Shown: positions 21,686-31,136 of the stretch, in pieces
Numbering within the stretch: the stretch's first letter is position 1
Layout: each line of letters starts with the position of its first letter
NCBI GenBank assembly: GCA_029261035.1
Contig: JAJDCD010000010.1
Span: 143,496 to 207,495, forward strand
Length of the DNA stretch: 64,000 nt
Direction: 5' to 3'
Origin: Candidatus Omnitrophota bacterium
Lineage (GTDB): Bacteria > Omnitrophota > Omnitrophia > Omnitrophales > JACROU01
Made by a program: the position numbers and the translations under genes
The notes under the pieces: model-generated
Told to the model about the DNA's origin: nothing
The model's input: the letters and a program-made list of their open reading frames with translations, nothing else
Databases searched by the model: none

Positions 21686-24600
21686 TTACGCCGAAATAAG
21701 AATGCGAAGCTGTGCATGTATCTCAGTAACCCATCGAGCCACCATATCATTCAAGAAACTATCCCGCATATGGAATATAGAATCAATTTGATCGAGCTTG
21801 TCTGGATGCGGATTCGTAATCGGTGTTGCTAAGAAATCAAGCCCAATATCAATAGCGGCAATTCTAGCAACCAAACGATTCTCATCTCGAACAGAGTCGA
21901 GACTGTTCCCTCGGATTACTTGATCTGAAGAAATCTTTCGAACCCCTTTAACAAAAACACCTTCTAAGTCAACCGATGGCGCAACAACAACAACTTGTCC
22001 TTTAGGAAAACGTGCTGTTTGCATCGTAACAAAAAACTCAAGAGCTTCCGCAACTGTTTTACGACCCACTTTTTGAAAAGTGATAAATTTATTTTTTACT
22101 TCTGGATCCACTTTTAAGTTCTTAAGAACACTAAGAACTCTATCTTTTGTGCTATTATTTGGCACCAAGAAAGCAATATTCTTTTTGTTTGGGCCTCTTA
22201 ATGCGAGCGCAACAGGAATTAAAGTTTCTTCTAACACCTTCTCTGAAACATCTCCCAAAGGAAGTACAAGTTGTCCAGGTAAGCTACTGGTACTTTTATT
22301 AAAAATTCGAAGAGCTGCTGCTTTTGCATCTAATGTAACTGGCGAAATTTCAATACTTGTTGGATCTAACAAAGCAGTTCCTGAAATAGTAACAGACGTT
22401 GTGATCGAATCGCCCAAGCTACTTGCGACAGCTAAATTTGTTTTCTTAGCAAACAAACTAACCAAACCCTGAATTTGTCTTTTAGCACTAGAATCCTCTA
22501 TCTCAACCTCTTGTATGGCATCTAAATGATATTGCGTAAATTTTGTAGGCGCTTTTGCCAACAAACTTCTAAGAGAAGTTAATAGATGTCGTAAATGTCC
22601 CACACTTCTAAAATTTTGCAATTCTGTAACAAGTCCATCTACTTTTGCTACTGTAATCTCTTCCGGAGCTAAAGTCTGCCTTGCAGAAGACCCTCTCTCT
22701 TTTTTATGACGATGATCTCTAAGATGATCATTTCTCCGTCCTAAGCTATCGGCAGTAACCTCTTCTAAAATTTTTGCTACAGCTGATTTAGCTTGAGGAG
22801 TTACAAAAACTTGATTTACACCTAGGCTAGAAGCAGATAAAGGTTTCGCTGAAATAGGTGTAATATCTTCCTCTCCCACAAACATGGTAAAAAATCCGGA
22901 GTTTCTTAAACTTTCTTTTGCACCTGCCAACAACCTGTTTTCTCCACTTTCAATAAGTGGAATTCCTGCCTCTAACATTTGCTTTTTATTACGAGCAAGC
23001 AACATATTTCTTGCATCCATAATCACAGGAACTTCAACTCTACGACCACCAATCACAACACTTTTAATAGGTTCCATTATTTGATGCGCTTCCACTAAAT
23101 CTAAATTTTTTATTTCGTCCCAGTCCGTCATGAGCGCTATCAAGTTGCTTCCCTTAATTGCTTGTTTCATCGTTTTCGCAACTTCCACCTTATCGTCAAA
23201 CTTAACAGTAATTAAACGTTTCCATCCCTTTTTAACAATTCCTTCAATTTCTCTTTGGGTTAAATTTAAACTTACTGTATCAACATCCGCATCATATTTA
23301 TCTTCACCCCTACTACCAGACAAAACTTGATTCCGTACTTGTCGCAACAACCCTGATATATCTTTATCTAAAATACTCATATCTTCTTTTAAAATCTGGT
23401 ACGTAAAATCAAATACAAAGTTTTGTTGTGCTTCTTCTAAAGGATCATGAAAAGAAACCGTTGCTCCCAAATCCAATAACTCTCGGATCACAACCATCGA
23501 ACGCGTTTCACGAACATCGTCTGTATTCGCTTTAAATGCAAGTCCTAAAACACCAATACGAACACCCTCTAATGGGAGATCTGTATTTTCTGCTACATCT
23601 CCTATCGAAGCTAATGTGCTTTTGATTTTACCCACAACAACCATAGGTGCTCGTCCGTTTGTTGAAATCGCTTTCTCAGCAATTTTAAAATCAACTCCAC
23701 TTTCTTTAGCACGATAAAGAGCTTCAGCGGTATCTTTAGGAAAACAAGAGCCTCCATACCCTGCTCCAGCAGCCAAAAATGCTGCATTAGGGTTACGAAC
23801 ATCATTTTTCATGATACGAACTACTTCTTGATAAGAAGCTCCAACTTCTTCACTCAGCCAAGCAAGTGCATTTGCAAAAGAGATACTGATAGCCAACCAA
23901 ACATTGGCCGAATATTTAATCATAGGCGAACTTTTACGGTCTGTCACAACTACAGGATGCTTGTGCCGTGCCTGCAAAGGAGCCCATAACTCTTGTAATT
24001 TTTTTGATGCGAATTCTGATTCCACACCAAATACATTTCTGTCTGGATTTAAAACATCGTGAACCGCACTCCCTTCTCTTAAGAACTCGGGATTACTTGC
24101 GATATCAAAATGGCTCCCTTCTTTAAGATCCATTTCAACTAGAACTTCTTTCATTTTATCGAACGCAATTGGAGGTACTGTTGACTTCACAACAATAACT
24201 TTCCTTCTAGGAGTTCTTCTGTCACTACTCCTTAGATTACTTTTAATACCCCAACCAGCAGTTCTTGTTGCTGAAAGTAAATAAGCTAAATTAGCTTCCC
24301 CTTTATTAGGTCCTTCTTTAATTTCTGGAGTTCCAACTGCAATATAAATAATATTAGCATCATGAATCGCTGCTTCAGCACCACTGCTATAGAACTCCGA
24401 CTCTTCCAATGGAGAATGTTGAAAGTGAAGTCGCCCATCATCACGATTCTTTTTTACCAATTCTTCTAATCCAGGCTCCCAAATAGGCAGCCTTACTTCG
24501 GGTTGATTAAGCCCTTCAATCTTATTTCTATCGATATCCAGAGTCGTAACATCATGACCCAAATCAGACAAAACAGTTCCTGTAATTAATCCCACATAAC

Positions 24601-27600
24601 CCGTTCCGACCATAACCACTTTTTTTCTATCTACAGCTGCAGGATCGTCAAATTTTATAACCTTGTCCATATTGGCTCTATCTTTAACCTTTTTAAAACT
24701 AGGACCAACAGAAGGACGGCCTAAGCTAAGGTAGTTAATCCCTACATCTGCTACTTCCGTAAGAGAAACTTCCTGAGTTCCATCAGATTGGCGACCAAAA
24801 ATATTACGCCCATCAAAAAGAGGCTTTAGTTTCAAAACTCTCTTCATCTTTTGTAACCCAATATTGCGAATCACATCATGATCCGCTGCAATCACCACTG
24901 CATTACTTTTTCGGATAGCCTCTTCTGGAGAGTCTACAAACTCAAAAAAGTTTACGTTTAATCGACTTCTAATAATTTTATCCAACGATGTATCTTCTCT
25001 AGCTTCCGTAACCCATTTCATAAACTCTTCTTGAACGTCAGGGTCATAGATATAAATTTTCTTAATTCCTTTAGCCGCTAACCACAACACTAAATCTTTA
25101 GCAGGGGAAGCTAGCAAACGCGCTCCATTTCCTTTAAAAGCAACTCCTAATAACGCCATCTTAATATCTGAAACTCTTTTTCCACTTATGGTCGACATAT
25201 TTTGATCGATCATAGATTTAAACCAATCAATTTGCGCATTATTAGAATCGCGCACCTCTGTAACACCATGAAATGCGAGTTGAGGTGGTAAAACATCATT
25301 TTCCCCAGCCCTTTCATTTCGCTTAAATAACTCATCAAATTCCGAGGCCGCTCTTTCTAGAAAAGCTCTTAACTTTCCCCCAAAAGCAAAAGAAGGACTA
25401 ATATTATGCAACCCCACACGCCTATCCAAACCAGCACCAAACGCAACCATTCCCATATCTCCTTTTAACTTACGTACAACTTGTGCAATCGTATTAAAAG
25501 AAGCAAGCTTGGTACCCAAATAAGAGAGAATTCCCAAGTAGCCCAACTCCGCACTCGCAGAGTCCGTCACAACAAACATTTTTTCATCTAAGCCTTTCGG
25601 AAAAAGAAGCGCTTTCAAACTTTCCTTTGTGTTTTCTTGAGCTTGTTTCAAATTTCTAAATTTATCTGCATCATCTTCATCTACAATCGATTCCACCTTA
25701 GGAAATCCTAAAATCAACTGCTGACTATTCATATCCTCGATTTGAGATCCTTTACGCAACAACTCTGGAGCGTACACAACCGTAAAATTATCATCCTCTC
25801 CACTAACATCATAAATCGTCTGCATAATATTTTCTGTTCGTCCTGTAGGCATATGGCTTCGAACAATAAATGTTTTATGACTTCGATCTCCCAAAGCTCT
25901 GAGCCTCTTTAACGCTTCACCAAATCCTCTACTACGCTGATTGACAACTTTCTCAAATCGATCCGCATCTTTGTCTAAGAAAAGACCCGCATCAATCATA
26001 ATGACATTATGTTCCTCTAAAACCATAATCTGTGCAATTTGATATTTCAACTCTTTAAGCTTTGCACCCGATCCTTGTAAAACAGATGAATAAAAAAGAT
26101 CCTCTTTTATACTAATTAATGTTGGAGTCACTTCTCCACTATGTCCAAAGAGCACTTTTTCTTGAATAAAATCTTTTATCCAAGTCAAATGCTTCTCAAT
26201 CTGGATCATTCTTTGCGTAAGAACCTCGTCTACAGTCTGTTCTCCTAAGTCCAATTGCTGCAAACCTACTTTGTCATCTAATTTCTGTAGTTCTTTAACT
26301 TTTATTTTTTCTACATTCAATTTCAACCTTAACCAATCCGAAACATCATCAATATTTATTTCTGTAATATCCGCATCTTTCTTTCCTTGTAAAATAACCT
26401 CAGATCTTCCTGGTTCATGGTTCTTTGAATTTGCAGAATCCAAATTTCTCTGCGTATCATACCAATCAATCGAGATCTGACGCCCTGCATCTGTTGCTCT
26501 TTTAAGCAACACAGCACTCGTCGTTACACCCACATCACCAACACCCCAAAAAGCAATTTTTTCTATTGGGGTTATTTCAGTAACCACCTGATCAGCACCC
26601 AAAGATGCCGCCGTAGAAACGGAAACATCCACCCAAAGACTAGACTGATTTGGGCCTAAAAATTGAACACGCAACTTATCGCCCTCTTGAGCCGTAACTT
26701 TTGCTGACGTTAAAGACGATAAAGCTGTGCCATCAAAAGCTCGTCTTCGAAGAAGAGAGTTTGCTCGTCTTTCTAAGCCGCGTTGATAAGCTTTAGAATC
26801 TAATTGATAAGCAGAAGATACAGGTTCTGTAACCAAAGATCGAATTAACATGTGCCCTAAAGTTTCCGGAGCATCCAAAGAGTTCCTTGTTAATCGTGCT
26901 GCGATTGAAATTTTATTTAATTCTGATTTAATAAATGCATCTGAATTAATTTGATCTTTTCCTAAAATTAAATTTAAATATTCATGCGCTTGCTCAGACA
27001 ACTCTGCTTTTGGACGAATAGATAAGAAGGAAACATCTTCTTCTGTAAGTTTTTGCTGAATTCCACCACCATGAAAACCACCAGTAATAAGAACCGCCTT
27101 TGATTTACGTTCTTGCTTCAAGAAAGAAAGAGACTTTTGAATCATCGCACCTTCTCGCTCGCGAGCCACTTCATAAAAACGAAGCGCACGATCGAAAAAC
27201 GAATCCTCCAATTGAGACAAGAGAGAAACTCTATTTTCCATCTCTCTTTGAATCGTTTGGATCTTTTCCGTTAGTAAAGAAGGCTTCCAGTCAGAAGCTA
27301 AAGATTGAATTTTTTGAGCTTCATCACGACTTAATTCGAGCTTAAATAATTTTTCATAAAGATTAATAGTTTCATCTGCTTTGAAAATTTGTTTTTCCAA
27401 CCGTGTTTCAAGAAGAGCTTCAGCAATGCTATTTTCCAAAGCACTTTTCTCCTGAAACAAATCAGACCCTACTAATTCTTTTTGATAAATAAGTTGACGA
27501 ACCAAGGAGGGTAATACCTTACTGCGATCTAATGAAAACTCATATTCTTCTGCAGCACTCCAAAGAAGCTCAAAATAACCTCTTGGATCTTGAAACAAAA

Positions 27601-28561
27601 GTAAATCACTTTGAGAGCTTGCATTCAATGAAGGAACTCCCTGTCTTAAGGAACTCCAATTTTCTGACAAAATCTTTTTAAACGGATTACTTTCTGGGAT
27701 TTTAGTTAAAAGAAGATGTTGAATGTATAACCATTCTTGAGCCCAAACCTTAAGATCAATATCCTTACTTTCTCTTTCAAGGGTAAATAGCTTACGAATA
27801 TTCTTTAAATCAAGAGGCGAGGCTACATATTTCTGTTCCAGTTCATTTAAATGTCTTAAATAATTTAATAAGTGCAGTTTTCCATTTTCAAACTCGCTCT
27901 TTTTCTGATCCCATACCCGTAAATCACCTAAATAAACTTTATCTTTTGCTTTTTGAATCTGGGTTTTCCACTGACCCACTGCCTTGAGCGCCTGTGGAGA
28001 GAATTTGTAAATTTCACGAAAAAGCTTTAAATTTTCTTTGTATAACTCAGGGTTCTCCACCCCTAACACTTTAACTTTTGATTGTTTCTCAATAGCAAAA
28101 ACTTCAGCCGCTGAAAATTGTCCTTTTTTCATCCAACGATGAGCAGCACTTACATTCATTTTCGCATCAGGGAATAAGTTAAAAAGACTAGAATCAATAG
28201 AACTATCGGCCCCTTCAACAAAAACAACGTCAACACCTTCTGTTCGATAAAGGTAATCTAAAATTTGTTTAATTCTATTTTGCGTTCCTAAATGAGCATG
28301 CGCATCTTCCAAATGATAAATTTTCATTCTTTCTTGCTTTGTTTGATAAGCATCAACAACAAAGCCTAATTCATTTGGGAAACCAAAAGAAGAAGACATG
28401 GACTGTTGTGTAACTGAAGGGGTGCTTACAAACACCTCGGCCCAAGCAGGATTAACTCCTGAAAAAATCATAAAAAATGCCAATGCTAAGGAAAGCATTT
28501 TCATAATCATCTTCTTTTTTAAAGTTTTTAATCTTCTTCGCATAAGTTTTTCTTCTTTCAT
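21686..28561 (-). CDS. Giant exported protein: ChaN/TraB-like domain, UDP-glucose dehydrogenase pseudoenzyme and intact UDP-glucose dehydrogenase
   Basis: The protein has about 2291 residues. A signal peptide (hydrophobic core about 22-36, Ala-rich end near 41) is followed by domain 1 (about 45-540) with HLEDAHAH, VFVEGAD and ITGGFHGGG, resembling the ChaN/TraB/EreA-type fold. Domain 2 (about 665-1290) has UDP-glucose dehydrogenase architecture: GVGDVG, APELLRKGS, the dimer helix and LGVAFKGN, but FAFGGKLRAF replaces the catalytic-Cys motif. Domain 3 (about 1312-1875) is a full enzyme with VVMVGTGYVGL, SNPEFLREGS, Lys of SPMIKYSANV, catalytic Cys1607 in GYGGSCFPKD and GLAFKANTDD. The C-terminal 400 residues have SLG motifs and no known family. 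An NAD enzyme behind a signal peptide is odd. The start (ATG 28561 or six codons later) is uncertain. Confidence 0.85.
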   Translation of the reverse strand: MKEEKLMRRRLKTLKKKMIMKMLSLALAFFMIFSGVNPAWAEVFVSTPSVTQQSMSSSFGFPNELGFVVDAYQTKQERMKIYHLEDAHAHLGTQNRIKQILDYLYRTEGVDVVFVEGADSSIDSSLFNLFPDAKMNVSAAHRWMKKGQFSAAEVFAIEKQSKVKVLGVENPELYKENLKLFREIYKFSPQALKAVGQWKTQIQKAKDKVYLGDLRVWDQKKSEFENGKLHLLNYLRHLNELEQKYVASPLDLKNIRKLFTLERESKDIDLKVWAQEWLYIQHLLLTKIPESNPFKKILSENWSSLRQGVPSLNASSQSDLLLFQDPRGYFELLWSAAEEYEFSLDRSKVLPSLVRQLIYQKELVGSDLFQEKSALENSIAEALLETRLEKQIFKADETINLYEKLFKLELSRDEAQKIQSLASDWKPSLLTEKIQTIQREMENRVSLLSQLEDSFFDRALRFYEVAREREGAMIQKSLSFLKQERKSKAVLITGGFHGGGIQQKLTEEDVSFLSIRPKAELSEQAHEYLNLILGKDQINSDAFIKSELNKISIAARLTRNSLDAPETLGHMLIRSLVTEPVSSAYQLDSKAYQRGLERRANSLLRRRAFDGTALSSLTSAKVTAQEGDKLRVQFLGPNQSSLWVDVSVSTAASLGADQVVTEITPIEKIAFWGVGDVGVTTSAVLLKRATDAGRQISIDWYDTQRNLDSANSKNHEPGRSEVILQGKKDADITEINIDDVSDWLRLKLNVEKIKVKELQKLDDKVGLQQLDLGEQTVDEVLTQRMIQIEKHLTWIKDFIQEKVLFGHSGEVTPTLISIKEDLFYSSVLQGSGAKLKELKYQIAQIMVLEEHNVIMIDAGLFLDKDADRFEKVVNQRSRGFGEALKRLRALGDRSHKTFIVRSHMPTGRTENIMQTIYDVSGEDDNFTVVYAPELLRKGSQIEDMNSQQLILGFPKVESIVDEDDADKFRNLKQAQENTKESLKALLFPKGLDEKMFVVTDSASAELGYLGILSYLGTKLASFNTIAQVVRKLKGDMGMVAFGAGLDRRVGLHNISPSFAFGGKLRAFLERAASEFDELFKRNERAGENDVLPPQLAFHGVTEVRDSNNAQIDWFKSMIDQNMSTISGKRVSDIKMALLGVAFKGNGARLLASPAKDLVLWLAAKGIKKIYIYDPDVQEEFMKWVTEAREDTSLDKIIRSRLNVNFFEFVDSPEEAIRKSNAVVIAADHDVIRNIGLQKMKRVLKLKPLFDGRNIFGRQSDGTQEVSLTEVADVGINYLSLGRPSVGPSFKKVKDRANMDKVIKFDDPAAVDRKKVVMVGTGYVGLITGTVLSDLGHDVTTLDIDRNKIEGLNQPEVRLPIWEPGLEELVKKNRDDGRLHFQHSPLEESEFYSSGAEAAIHDANIIYIAVGTPEIKEGPNKGEANLAYLLSATRTAGWGIKSNLRSSDRRTPRRKVIVVKSTVPPIAFDKMKEVLVEMDLKEGSHFDIASNPEFLREGSAVHDVLNPDRNVFGVESEFASKKLQELWAPLQARHKHPVVVTDRKSSPMIKYSANVWLAISISFANALAWLSEEVGASYQEVVRIMKNDVRNPNAAFLAAGAGYGGSCFPKDTAEALYRAKESGVDFKIAEKAISTNGRAPMVVVGKIKSTLASIGDVAENTDLPLEGVRIGVLGLAFKANTDDVRETRSMVVIRELLDLGATVSFHDPLEEAQQNFVFDFTYQILKEDMSILDKDISGLLRQVRNQVLSGSRGEDKYDADVDTVSLNLTQREIEGIVKKGWKRLITVKFDDKVEVAKTMKQAIKGSNLIALMTDWDEIKNLDLVEAHQIMEPIKSVVIGGRRVEVPVIMDARNMLLARNKKQMLEAGIPLIESGENRLLAGAKESLRNSGFFTMFVGEEDITPISAKPLSASSLGVNQVFVTPQAKSAVAKILEEVTADSLGRRNDHLRDHRHKKERGSSARQTLAPEEITVAKVDGLVTELQNFRSVGHLRHLLTSLRSLLAKAPTKFTQYHLDAIQEVEIEDSSAKRQIQGLVSLFAKKTNLAVASSLGDSITTSVTISGTALLDPTSIEISPVTLDAKAAALRIFNKSTSSLPGQLVLPLGDVSEKVLEETLIPVALALRGPNKKNIAFLVPNNSTKDRVLSVLKNLKVDPEVKNKFITFQKVGRKTVAEALEFFVTMQTARFPKGQVVVVAPSVDLEGVFVKGVRKISSDQVIRGNSLDSVRDENRLVARIAAIDIGLDFLATPITNPHPDKLDQIDSIFHMRDSFLNDMVARWVTEIHAQLRILISA

Positions 28562-28686
28562 CAAAATTTTTTGTCCCGTAAATATTCCACAGCATTCTCA
28601 GTTTGTCAAACTAAGGAAGATAAGTTTCTAATATTTCTATCTGAACGATAAAAATAAGGCATAGATTCTTATCAAAAGGAACGAAA

Positions 28687-28813: not shown

Positions 28814-29908
28814 TTAAACACTAAAGCGAAAAAACATGATATCACCATCTTTTACTTGGTATTCTTTGCCTTCCAGACGCATAAGCCCCTTCTCTTTAAT
28901 GCCTTTTTCAGAGCCTAGTTCGTTTAATGCGGTGTAGTCAAATACCTCAGCCCGAATGAAACCTCTCTCGAAGTCCGTGTGAATTTCTCCAGCGGCCTGA
29001 GGCGCTGTCACAAGGTTTTGTACGGTCCAAGCTCGAACCTCTTGCTTTCCTGCAGTAAAAAAGGTGATTAACCCTAAAAGACTGTAACCCGTGCGAATAA
29101 GCTGGTTCAGACCGGACTCTTCAAGGCCCATATCTTTCAAAAACTCCACCTTCTCATCTTCTTCCAACTCAGCAAGCTCAGCTTCCACTTTTCCAGACAC
29201 CACAACCACCTGGGAATTCTCTTTTTCCGCCAACTCTCTTACTTGCTGAACCAAAGGCCCACCTTCCGGTAAATCATTTTCATTAACGTTACAGCAGTAC
29301 AAAACAGGCTTGGATGTTAAGAGCTGAAGGTCTAATAACACTTTTTTTTCATCCTCAGACAAACCTTGTTTTCTAACAGGAGTTCCATCTTCAAGACTTT
29401 CTTTCACTTTAACGCAAACTTCTTGCTGCGCTTTAGCATCCTTGTCTCCAGTCCGTACTAGTTTTTCATTTCTTTCTACACGCTTAGTCACCGTATCTAT
29501 GTCTTTAAGACATAGTTCTGTATCAATAACCTCGATATCCCCGACAGGATCCACCTTGCCTGCAACATGCACAATATCATCATCTTCAAAGCAACGCACC
29601 ACATGAAGAACAGCATCTACCTCTTTAATGTTTCCTAAAAACTGATTTCCTAAACCTTCTCCTCTACTCGCTCCTGCAACTAAGCCTGCAATATCAACAA
29701 ACTGCATCGAAGTAGGCGTTATTTTATCGGGTTGGTATATTTCAACTAAACGATCCAATCGCTTATCCGGGACAGAAACAATTCCTACGTTCGGTTCTAT
29801 GGTACAAAAAGGATAATTCGAAGCGCCTGCTCCTGCTTTAGTCAACGAGTTAAAAACAGTCGATTTTCCTACGTTCGGTAATCCTACAATTCCACATTTA
29901 AATCCCAC
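28814..29908 (-). CDS. ychF: YchF/OLA1-family GTPase, copy 1
   Basis: The start is set to GTG 29908 (VGFKCGIVG), which follows AAGGAGATTTCT; the longer frame upstream runs into AT-rich repeat DNA. The 364-residue protein has the P-loop GLPNVGKST, switch regions, G3 DIAGLV and the YchF-type G4 NVNE (in place of NKxD), which makes these enzymes ATP-preferring. The C-terminal TGS domain (about 280-364: RAWTVQNLVTAPQAAGEIHT, FERGFIRAEV) is intact. It binds ribosomes and affects translation and stress response. A second ychF lies just upstream in tandem; this copy keeps the canonical G4 and is the likely conventional YchF. Confidence 0.95.
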   Translation of the reverse strand: MGFKCGIVGLPNVGKSTVFNSLTKAGAGASNYPFCTIEPNVGIVSVPDKRLDRLVEIYQPDKITPTSMQFVDIAGLVAGASRGEGLGNQFLGNIKEVDAVLHVVRCFEDDDIVHVAGKVDPVGDIEVIDTELCLKDIDTVTKRVERNEKLVRTGDKDAKAQQEVCVKVKESLEDGTPVRKQGLSEDEKKVLLDLQLLTSKPVLYCCNVNENDLPEGGPLVQQVRELAEKENSQVVVVSGKVEAELAELEEDEKVEFLKDMGLEESGLNQLIRTGYSLLGLITFFTAGKQEVRAWTVQNLVTAPQAAGEIHTDFERGFIRAEVFDYTALNELGSEKGIKEKGLMRLEGKEYQVKDGDIMFFRFSV

Positions 29909-29919
29909 AGAAATCTCCT

Positions 29920-30040
29920 TATCAAAATTTAAAAATAAAAAGTATAAAGTAAAAACTATGGACACATCCAAATATTTGGATGTGTTTATTTTTAAATTTT
30001 AAATTATGGTTTTTAATTTTTACTTTAAAATTTTGAATCT
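29920..30040. repeat. AT-rich inverted repeat with central palindrome
   Basis: The gap between the ychF genes consists of AT-rich mirrored stretches around a perfect 24-bp palindrome at 29962-29985 (ACACATCCAAAT and complement). It resembles the AT-rich regions at 4425-4557 and 5680-5745, and may act as terminator for ychF copy 2. Confidence 0.45.
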
Positions 30041-30041
30041 C

Positions 30042-31136
30042 TCACACATTAAATCTAAAGTGAACAACATCCCCATCTTGAATTTCGTAATCTTTTCCTT
30101 CTACTTTAAAACAACCGTTTTCCCTAGCTTTTTGAAGAGATCCCGAATCAATTAAATCCTGACACTTTACAACCTCTACCCGAATGAAGCCTCTTTCCAT
30201 ATCGGAGTGCACATGCCCCGCAGCCTGAGGAGCCTTCGTTTCTTTAGGAACGGTCCAAGCCCGAACTTCACCATGGTCATGGGTAAAGAAAGTAACCTTA
30301 TCCAAAAGTTCATAACCCATATGCACCACTTTAGCAGGCCCTGATTTTTCAAGTAAAAACTCTTCTATAATTTCTTCCTTTTTCTCCGCATCTTCCATTC
30401 GGGACATCTCTTCTTCAAGAATGCCACATAGATATACAATTCGAGACATATCCTCCTCAGAAAAAGCATTTAACTCTTTTTCCCACTTCCCTCCGCCCGG
30501 CAAATCATCTTGGCTTACATTAACGCAATATAAATAAGGTTTGATTGTAAATAACTGAATATCTTTTAAGGAGTGTACTTGTTCATGCGTAAGATCCAAA
30601 TGTCGAATCGGATGACCACTTTCCAAAGCATCTTTTAATCCATGCAACAAATCAAAAAGATCTTCATCAAATTTTCCTGAAGCTTTCTTTGCTTCGAGCT
30701 TGGCAATGCGTCGCCCAACGGTTTCACTGTCTTTATGAATCAGTTCATTATTTACGATCCGAATATCGCGCATGGGATCAATGGAACCTAAAAAGTGAAC
30801 GGCATCTTCACTGTCAAAAATTCGAACTACATGAAGTAATACATCTACATCTCTAAGGTGAGAAAGAAATTGGTTCCCCATTCCCTCTCCTTTAGAAGCT
30901 CCTTCTACCAAACCCGCCACATCCAAAAATTCCAAATGGGCCCGAACTACGTGTTTCGGATCAATAATCTTAACGATTTTTTCCAGCCGCTCATCCGGGA
31001 CAGGAACAACCCCTTTTTTAGGTTGAATCGTAGAAAAAGGAGCAATTGAGATTTCCTCTTTTCCATTAGCTAAAGTATTAAAAATCGTGGTCTTACCTAC
31101 ATTAGGCAACCCCACAATTCCACAACGAAAACCCAT
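30042..31136 (-). CDS. YchF/OLA1-family GTPase, copy 2 (divergent G4 motif)
   Basis: This is a second 364-residue YchF paralogue directly upstream of the first and of the same length. It has the P-loop GLPNVGKTT, G3 DVAGLV and the C-terminal TGS region (RAWTVPKETKAPQAAGHVHS, MERGFIRVEV). The G4 motif reads NVSQ instead of NVNE, removing the Glu that contacts the base in YchF proteins, so nucleotide preference or activity may differ. Conservation of length and the other G motifs argues against a pseudogene. The start ATG follows GAGGAG. Two adjacent ychF genes are unusual; most bacteria have one. Confidence 0.92.
   Translation of the reverse strand: MGFRCGIVGLPNVGKTTIFNTLANGKEEISIAPFSTIQPKKGVVPVPDERLEKIVKIIDPKHVVRAHLEFLDVAGLVEGASKGEGMGNQFLSHLRDVDVLLHVVRIFDSEDAVHFLGSIDPMRDIRIVNNELIHKDSETVGRRIAKLEAKKASGKFDEDLFDLLHGLKDALESGHPIRHLDLTHEQVHSLKDIQLFTIKPYLYCVNVSQDDLPGGGKWEKELNAFSEEDMSRIVYLCGILEEEMSRMEDAEKKEEIIEEFLLEKSGPAKVVHMGYELLDKVTFFTHDHGEVRAWTVPKETKAPQAAGHVHSDMERGFIRVEVVKCQDLIDSGSLQKARENGCFKVEGKDYEIQDGDVVHFRFNV

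Follow-up and report, generated by a model that had tools for sequence, protein, structure and literature searches.

A degenerate and an intact UDP-glucose dehydrogenase fused within an apparently exported, cysteine-poor polyprotein of an Omnitrophota bacterium

The window considered here is the whole stretch of 64,000 nucleotides analysed (contig JAJDCD010000010.1, positions 143,496 to 207,495) from a Candidatus Omnitrophota bacterium with a genome of 2.7 Mb. Its subject is a single open reading frame (ORF) of 2292 residues, 21689-28564 on the minus strand and without internal stop, in which a degenerate module (U1) related to UDP-glucose dehydrogenase (UGDH) is followed by an intact one (U2); its TTG start is a mechanical call, residues 2 and 8 offering alternative ATG codons. 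A first-pass annotation, made from the sequence alone, had pictured a lone fusion of a UGDH pseudoenzyme with an active copy. The fusion is real, but it is not a one-off: the protein is one of about 45 that share a leader module, separators and C-terminal residues, and within this polyprotein the UGDH pair makes up one module of the cargo. We give an even chance to the proposal that this polyprotein is exported by Sec and cleaved at its separators, leaving a single-chain U1-U2 heterodimer with UGDH activity after export.

The second module scores 410 bits against the nucleotide sugar dehydrogenase profile TIGR03026 (a whole-protein score; cut-off 190), has a best E-value of 7.7e-75 against solved UGDHs by sequence, and its model aligns to 3gg2 with Z 32.5 and a root mean square deviation of 1.8 over 421 residues. 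The three UGDH domains occur in order and 12 of 12 key residues are kept, including GxGxxG from 1320, T1462, E1492, K1550, N1554, C1607 and D1611; U2 is thus, as the annotation had held, a canonical UGDH with an intact-looking site, for which catalysis is predicted. U1 matches PF00984 at 30.1 bits, above the cut-off, and PF03720 at 1137-1256, and profile-profile comparison with free-standing UGDHs gives a probability of 100% and an E-value of 8.5e-40 over 359 columns. The claimed kinship of U1 with UGDH stands on these matches, except for the Rossmann N-terminal half (~668-830), which is poorly supported: the predicted local distance difference test (pLDDT) is mostly below 60 and the hhalign match begins at column 186. 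This NAD-binding half is eroded.

The U1-U2 tandem was found in nine Omnitrophota genomes, comprising that of the window and eight further ones from its own family and two other families of the order. In these relatives it sits inside a large ORF, both modules in one frame; in one genome (G031) each of the two is at the end of a contig of its own. A frameshift or pseudogene artefact is ruled out by the open frame and by the tandem in eight other genomes. When U1 and U2 of the nine genomes were aligned with free-standing UGDHs, neither the catalytic Cys nor the Asn was left in any U1 (missing in 9/9 each) and the Lys was often gone too, whereas U2 was complete wherever readable. On this alignment we judge U1 to be homologous to UGDH but not active as one, in keeping with the earlier observation of FAFGGKL at the place of the Cys motif and with the description of an intact enzyme joined to a pseudoenzyme. 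The U1 sequences group in a single clade (100/100), and the U1 and U2 trees divide the genomes alike, suggesting that the pair most likely arose once and was inherited as a unit. In sister polyproteins the order is reversed, an intact UGDH being followed by a degenerate UGDH-like stretch; on these weaker matches, the pairing of a live and a dead copy appears to recur. A search of genome contigs with the U1-U2 pair of the window gave no match, and the same search with the U1 alignment returned five named loci, all from Candidatus Omnitrophica/Omnitrophota metagenome-assembled genomes.

Arg260 of human UGDH crosses the dimer to the glucose of the partner subunit's substrate (PMC3184952), and the D-x-R at the equivalent place in U1 never varies in the U1 alignments, even though U1 has lost the cis-acting Cys and Asn. 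Modelled together, U1 and U2 reach a predicted template modelling score (pTM) of 0.82 despite about 170 disordered residues, where our own estimate for two independently placed modules would be about 0.5, and we take this as a confident mutual placement in the model. Since U1 keeps the arginine that acts in trans in the human enzyme, its retention as a built-in heterodimer partner of U2 is the best reading that we infer; the same suggestion in the first-pass annotation gains support from co-inheritance, the invariant D-x-R and the predicted two-module arrangement. That U1 is instead a decaying, functionless duplicate would fit the loss of Cys, Asn and often Lys together with the erosion of its NAD-binding half. 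However, it has stayed in frame beside U2 while at least three families diverged, the two trees are congruent, its GAGLDxR and LGFGG[KR]L-type motifs are conserved, and the reverse arrangement exists in sister polyproteins, all of which make mere decay improbable. The UGDH pair may also be viewed as a natural experiment in dimer evolution, with one half apparently retained for what its partner gains; in the library searched, no paper paired a pseudoenzyme with a nucleotide sugar dehydrogenase.

The leader module heads 45 ORFs of the window genome (503-16,199 aa, 139,722 aa in total, ~15% of the genome). Of 285 Omnitrophota genomes searched, 145 have it, among them 49/49 of the window's class. 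The leader frame in some other lineages has only ~520-560 aa, so that the leader can stand alone. The AlphaFold2 model of residues 44-560 has a pLDDT of 88.6, and its top structural neighbours are EreC (Z 9.2), HopBA1 (9.0) and ChaN (9.0); six of the seven best are EreC (two), HopBA1, ChaN and BcR135 (two), with Z 8.0-9.2 over 154-180 residues. This signal came from re-alignment, Foldseek alone against the PDB being without significant match and the leader profile having none among PDB sequences. Among curated profiles PF04187 is matched by the largest number of members, 6/45, though weakly (best E 0.0059), and TIGR00261 by two (best E 1.3e-6). Considering the moderate Z values, the Tiki/Ere/ChaN fold is supported by the model rather than proven, and the earlier assignment as ChaN/TraB-like agrees with it. 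H89, E117, R470 and H498 are invariant in 45/45 paralogues, most of them only 17-30% identical to the window protein, and the His-28-Glu and Arg-28-His spacing is identical to that of the EreC pairs H50/E78 and R261/H289 (PMC7979712); the position of EreC E47 is E86 in the window leader and Gln in most paralogues. Given the fold, the invariant residues and the EreC-like spacing, the leader is probably an active hydrolase. RRSP, which has the same fold, is a sequence-specific endopeptidase (PMC6254334).

Behind the leader, the cargo of the family contains the motif [A/G]xSLG 208 times against 7.1 expected, the first copy usually within ~150 aa, while the leader modules hold 1 in 22,945 aa. None of 35 copies falls inside a recognised domain (P 6e-6); they stand in inter-domain stretches with polar flanks, and in the window protein those at 652 and 1911 bracket U1-U2 with none between the two modules. 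Ordinary ORFs of the window have no such separators. Other families of the class use a different motif, RSE[LVMIA]R (RSExR), which was returned by an unbiased search: 18 copies against 0.5 expected in one family (f8), 13 against 0.1 in another (f3) and 10-14 per protein in several members of a third (f5), and copies also flank the U1-U2 tandem in families using that dialect. A chance origin of the motifs is ruled out by these counts; the few polyproteins sampled outside the class had no standout separator. A C-terminal [A/S]A or similar ending is shared by almost every complete member of the family and by most polyproteins of relatives within the class. The C-terminal domain of the window protein has matches confined to the leader family (43% and 34% identity). 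Across the family this domain is diverged, lies mostly 120-400 aa behind the last separator and could be a sorting signal, and at the separators themselves TTR codons are preferred for Leu.

In our view, no other sign of export, or of selection for catalysis, is as strong as the pattern of cysteines. The family has 35 cysteines in 137,494 mature residues (0.025%) versus 1.19% in ordinary ORFs of the window, and the window polyprotein has one in all, the catalytic nucleophile C1607. Free-standing UGDHs of the relatives have 3-9 each, and their polyproteins of up to 6273 aa keep the cysteine of GGSC with almost all others gone; in polyproteins sampled outside the class the depletion is weaker (0.2-1.1%). 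Exclusion of cysteine from exported proteins, in bacteria with little disulfide chemistry, was reportedly described by Daniels et al. in 2010; DsbB was not found in the window genome, and two ordinary window ORFs with signal peptides have 0 and 1 cysteines in their mature parts. That hardly any cysteine is left beyond the active site supports export, as first proposed from the N-terminus.

Pfam matches and inspection identify among the cargo of the paralogues a phosphoglucomutase with a UDP-glucose pyrophosphorylase-like domain, GAPDH, Nudix and exonuclease modules, a permuted protein resembling pyruvate phosphate dikinase (PPDK), carbamate-kinase-like and Ser/Thr kinases, and a histidine kinase. 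These enzymes have recognisable active-site motifs and look intact; many modules are without family match, and modules differ greatly between paralogues. Phosphoglucomutase, the pyrophosphorylase and UGDH catalyse consecutive steps to UDP-glucuronate. In the apparently permuted PPDK-like protein (L083:271-5568, minus strand) the PEP-utilisers domain lies ahead of the ATP-binding domain and the swivel His motif GGLMSH is kept, and another polyprotein (L090:558-7628, minus strand) carries two complete-looking eukaryote-type Ser/Thr kinases (HRDLKP, DFG) with AxSLG between them.

The mechanism that we infer, covering export route, cleavage, dimer, catalysis and site of action, would connect what was computed, namely architecture, conservation, cysteine loss, the intact site of U2 and the lost site of U1. 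The polyprotein would leave the cytoplasm by Sec, with a Tiki/Ere-type hydrolase module behind the signal peptide, and the AxSLG pentapeptides would be module borders and probable cut sites, releasing a U1-U2 unit of ~1250 residues. Dead U1 would fold against U2, standing in for the second subunit of the obligate UGDH dimer, and supply the trans-arginine, making U2 active as a single-chain heterodimer that probably oxidises UDP-glucose to UDP-glucuronate after export. Because U2 needs NAD and UDP-glucose, it would act where both are available, most simply in the cytosol of another cell; the exported enzymes possibly work where NAD, ATP and UDP-sugars exist, as in a host or prey cell, and the genome carries an ATP/ADP translocase of a kind typical of host-dependent bacteria. 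A bolder version, which we hold only tentatively, is that a whole second metabolism (phosphoglucomutase, the UDP-glucose pyrophosphorylase-like enzyme, UGDH, GAPDH, the PPDK-like protein and kinases) is exported by Omnitrophota as cysteine-free polyproteins, with a matching protease cleaving each one at the pentapeptide of its lineage and the ATP-, NAD- and UDP-dependent enzymes thus set free acting in host or prey cytosol, where the fused dead twin would keep UGDH active.

Several points weigh against this mechanism. Signal peptides were judged by eye, and a crude hydropathy test, weak alone, was passed by 42/45 family ORFs but also by 14/32 ordinary ORFs; no system that would carry the proteins over the outer membrane was identified, and we know of no useful levels of UDP-glucose and NAD outside cells. 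Were the N-terminal hydrophobic stretch an anchor and the body cytoplasmic, where NAD and UDP-glucose are plentiful, the cofactor puzzle would vanish, and the cargo enzymes are indeed of cytosolic types with intact sites. This is nevertheless unlikely, as a positive N-terminus ahead of a hydrophobic core predicts, by the established positive-inside rule, an N-in, C-out orientation, and cysteine is near-absent here while normal in ordinary ORFs and free-standing UGDHs, the signal-peptide-bearing ordinary ORFs being also Cys-poor in a genome with no DsbB found. Alternatively, the site of action might be the periplasm or envelope compartment of the bacterium itself, with host-derived nucleotides feeding the enzymes. 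The genome does encode an ATP/ADP translocase (PF03219, 64 bits; 0/14 control genomes), which in Omnitrophota has been associated with dependence on a host (PMC10066038). Such a translocase imports into the cytosol, though, and there is no sign of UDP-glucose or NAD in the compartment, so that this location seems doubtful to us, if less so than a cytoplasmic one. The translocase match is of TLC type and lies in a 912-aa frame of L143 (around C24:46342-47313, minus strand).

Cleavage, too, meets difficulties. An ORF of 1120 aa (C21:39928-43287, plus strand) has a signal-like N-terminus, two separators and a C-terminal QAA without a leader; processing in cis therefore cannot depend on the leader alone, and its candidacy as a strictly cis-acting protease is weakened. 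Signal peptidase I was rejected as the cutter, since it would fit AxS but not the RSExR dialect. It is conceivable, as a minority view that we take seriously, that the separators are plain flexible linkers in one uncut, exported or surface-bound enzyme array of the beads-on-a-string kind; their inter-domain position and polar flanks, the lack of an identified protease and the leaderless ORF would suit this, but flexible linkers seldom call for one fixed pentapeptide at 30 times the expected frequency, or for a second exact motif in sister families. Cleavage also does not explain a bias at the DNA level, separator Ser being coded by AGT 93 times versus 40 expected. This bias, and the great differences in modules between paralogues, would fit separators that are scars of a DNA-level recombination system shuffling modules, a very improbable origin given that Gly codon usage is normal and that of Ala nearly so, that AGY and TCN serines are both present, and that bases beyond the motif are not conserved.

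The features of the window protein are collected in the table below, together with a second polyprotein of the window, whose repeats contain FPQPNGE. Directly upstream of the UGDH-bearing ORF are two adjacent GTPase genes on the same strand (28814-29971 and 30042-31136), both starting CGIVGLPNVGK and resembling the YchF/OLA1 type by eye.

Table. Positions in the window of the parts of the UGDH-bearing polyprotein and of a second polyprotein
Feature	Position	Strand	Basis or remarks
Signal-peptide-like N-terminus (residues 1-43)	28436..28564	-	basic stretch, hydrophobic core LSLALAFFMIFSGV, AWA|E cleavage-like site; by eye
Leader module (residues 44-560), Tiki/Ere/ChaN fold (supported, not proven)	26885..28435	-	AlphaFold2, structural neighbours, invariant H89, E117, R470, H498
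Separator AASLG (residues 652-656), directly ahead of UGDH pair	26597..26611	-	motif statistics and positions
U1, degenerate UGDH (residues 664-1290), without catalytic Cys	24695..26575	-	profiles, alignments
R1049 of U1, equivalent of human UGDH Arg260	25418..25420	-	invariant in U1 alignments
FAFGGKL (residues 1059-1065) replacing Cys motif GGSCFPKD in U1	25370..25390	-	alignment
U2, intact UGDH (residues 1311-1880)	22925..24634	-	TIGR03026, structural match, key residues
C1607 of U2, catalytic Cys, sole cysteine of mature protein	23744..23746	-	
Separator ASSLG (residues 1911-1915), directly behind UGDH pair	22820..22834	-	motif statistics and positions
Separator ADSLG (residues 1938-1942)	22739..22753	-	motif statistics and positions
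Separator ASSLG (residues 2047-2051), ahead of C-terminal domain	22412..22426	-	motif statistics and positions
C-terminal domain (residues 2052-2292), ends ...LISA	21689..22411	-	sequence comparison
Second polyprotein of window (5' end cut by contig end)	58048..63885	-	five [A/G]xSLG, one Cys in 1945 aa, C-terminus ...IASMA

U2 resembles known UGDHs (TIGR03026) in its three domains and all catalytic residues; these are, however, cytosolic homodimers or hexamers, whereas U2 is fused to a dead copy in an apparently exported chain stripped of non-catalytic Cys. Likewise, the leader differs from the Tiki/Ere/ChaN superfamily in that it is not clearly covered by a curated family, has a large helical insert and heads giant multi-enzyme ORFs. 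Giant ORFs (>20 kb) with few annotated domains have been described in Omnitrophota by Seymour et al. 2023, with a suggested role in adhesion (PMC10066038). Two paralogues of the present family, from the same phylum, would qualify with 8086 and 16,199 aa (24 and 49 kb), while the window ORF, at 6.9 kb, is below that length; the family itself is defined by leader, separators, C-terminal residues and metabolic enzymes, and includes many shorter ORFs. Giant Omnitrophota ORFs thereby gain a grammar consisting of leader, exact separators in two dialects, C-terminal [A/S]A and an enzyme cargo with conserved active sites and little other Cys, and what these ORFs do thereby comes within direct reach of proteomics and single-module expression. 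Autoprocessing multi-effector toxins of the MARTX type and gingipain-type polyproteins are alike by functional analogy, as one exported chain whose modules are to be cut apart, but differ from this family, which has a metabolic cargo and, as separators, a fixed pentapeptide that comes in two lineage dialects. A Pfam scan of the window protein returned no MARTX inositol-phosphate-activated cysteine protease domain and no repeats, and in the library searched no paper combined Omnitrophota with polyprotein. Taken alone, the UGDH pair is a variant of a known enzyme; the surrounding export grammar of leader, separators, C-termini and Cys-poor cargo resembles, to our knowledge, no known system.
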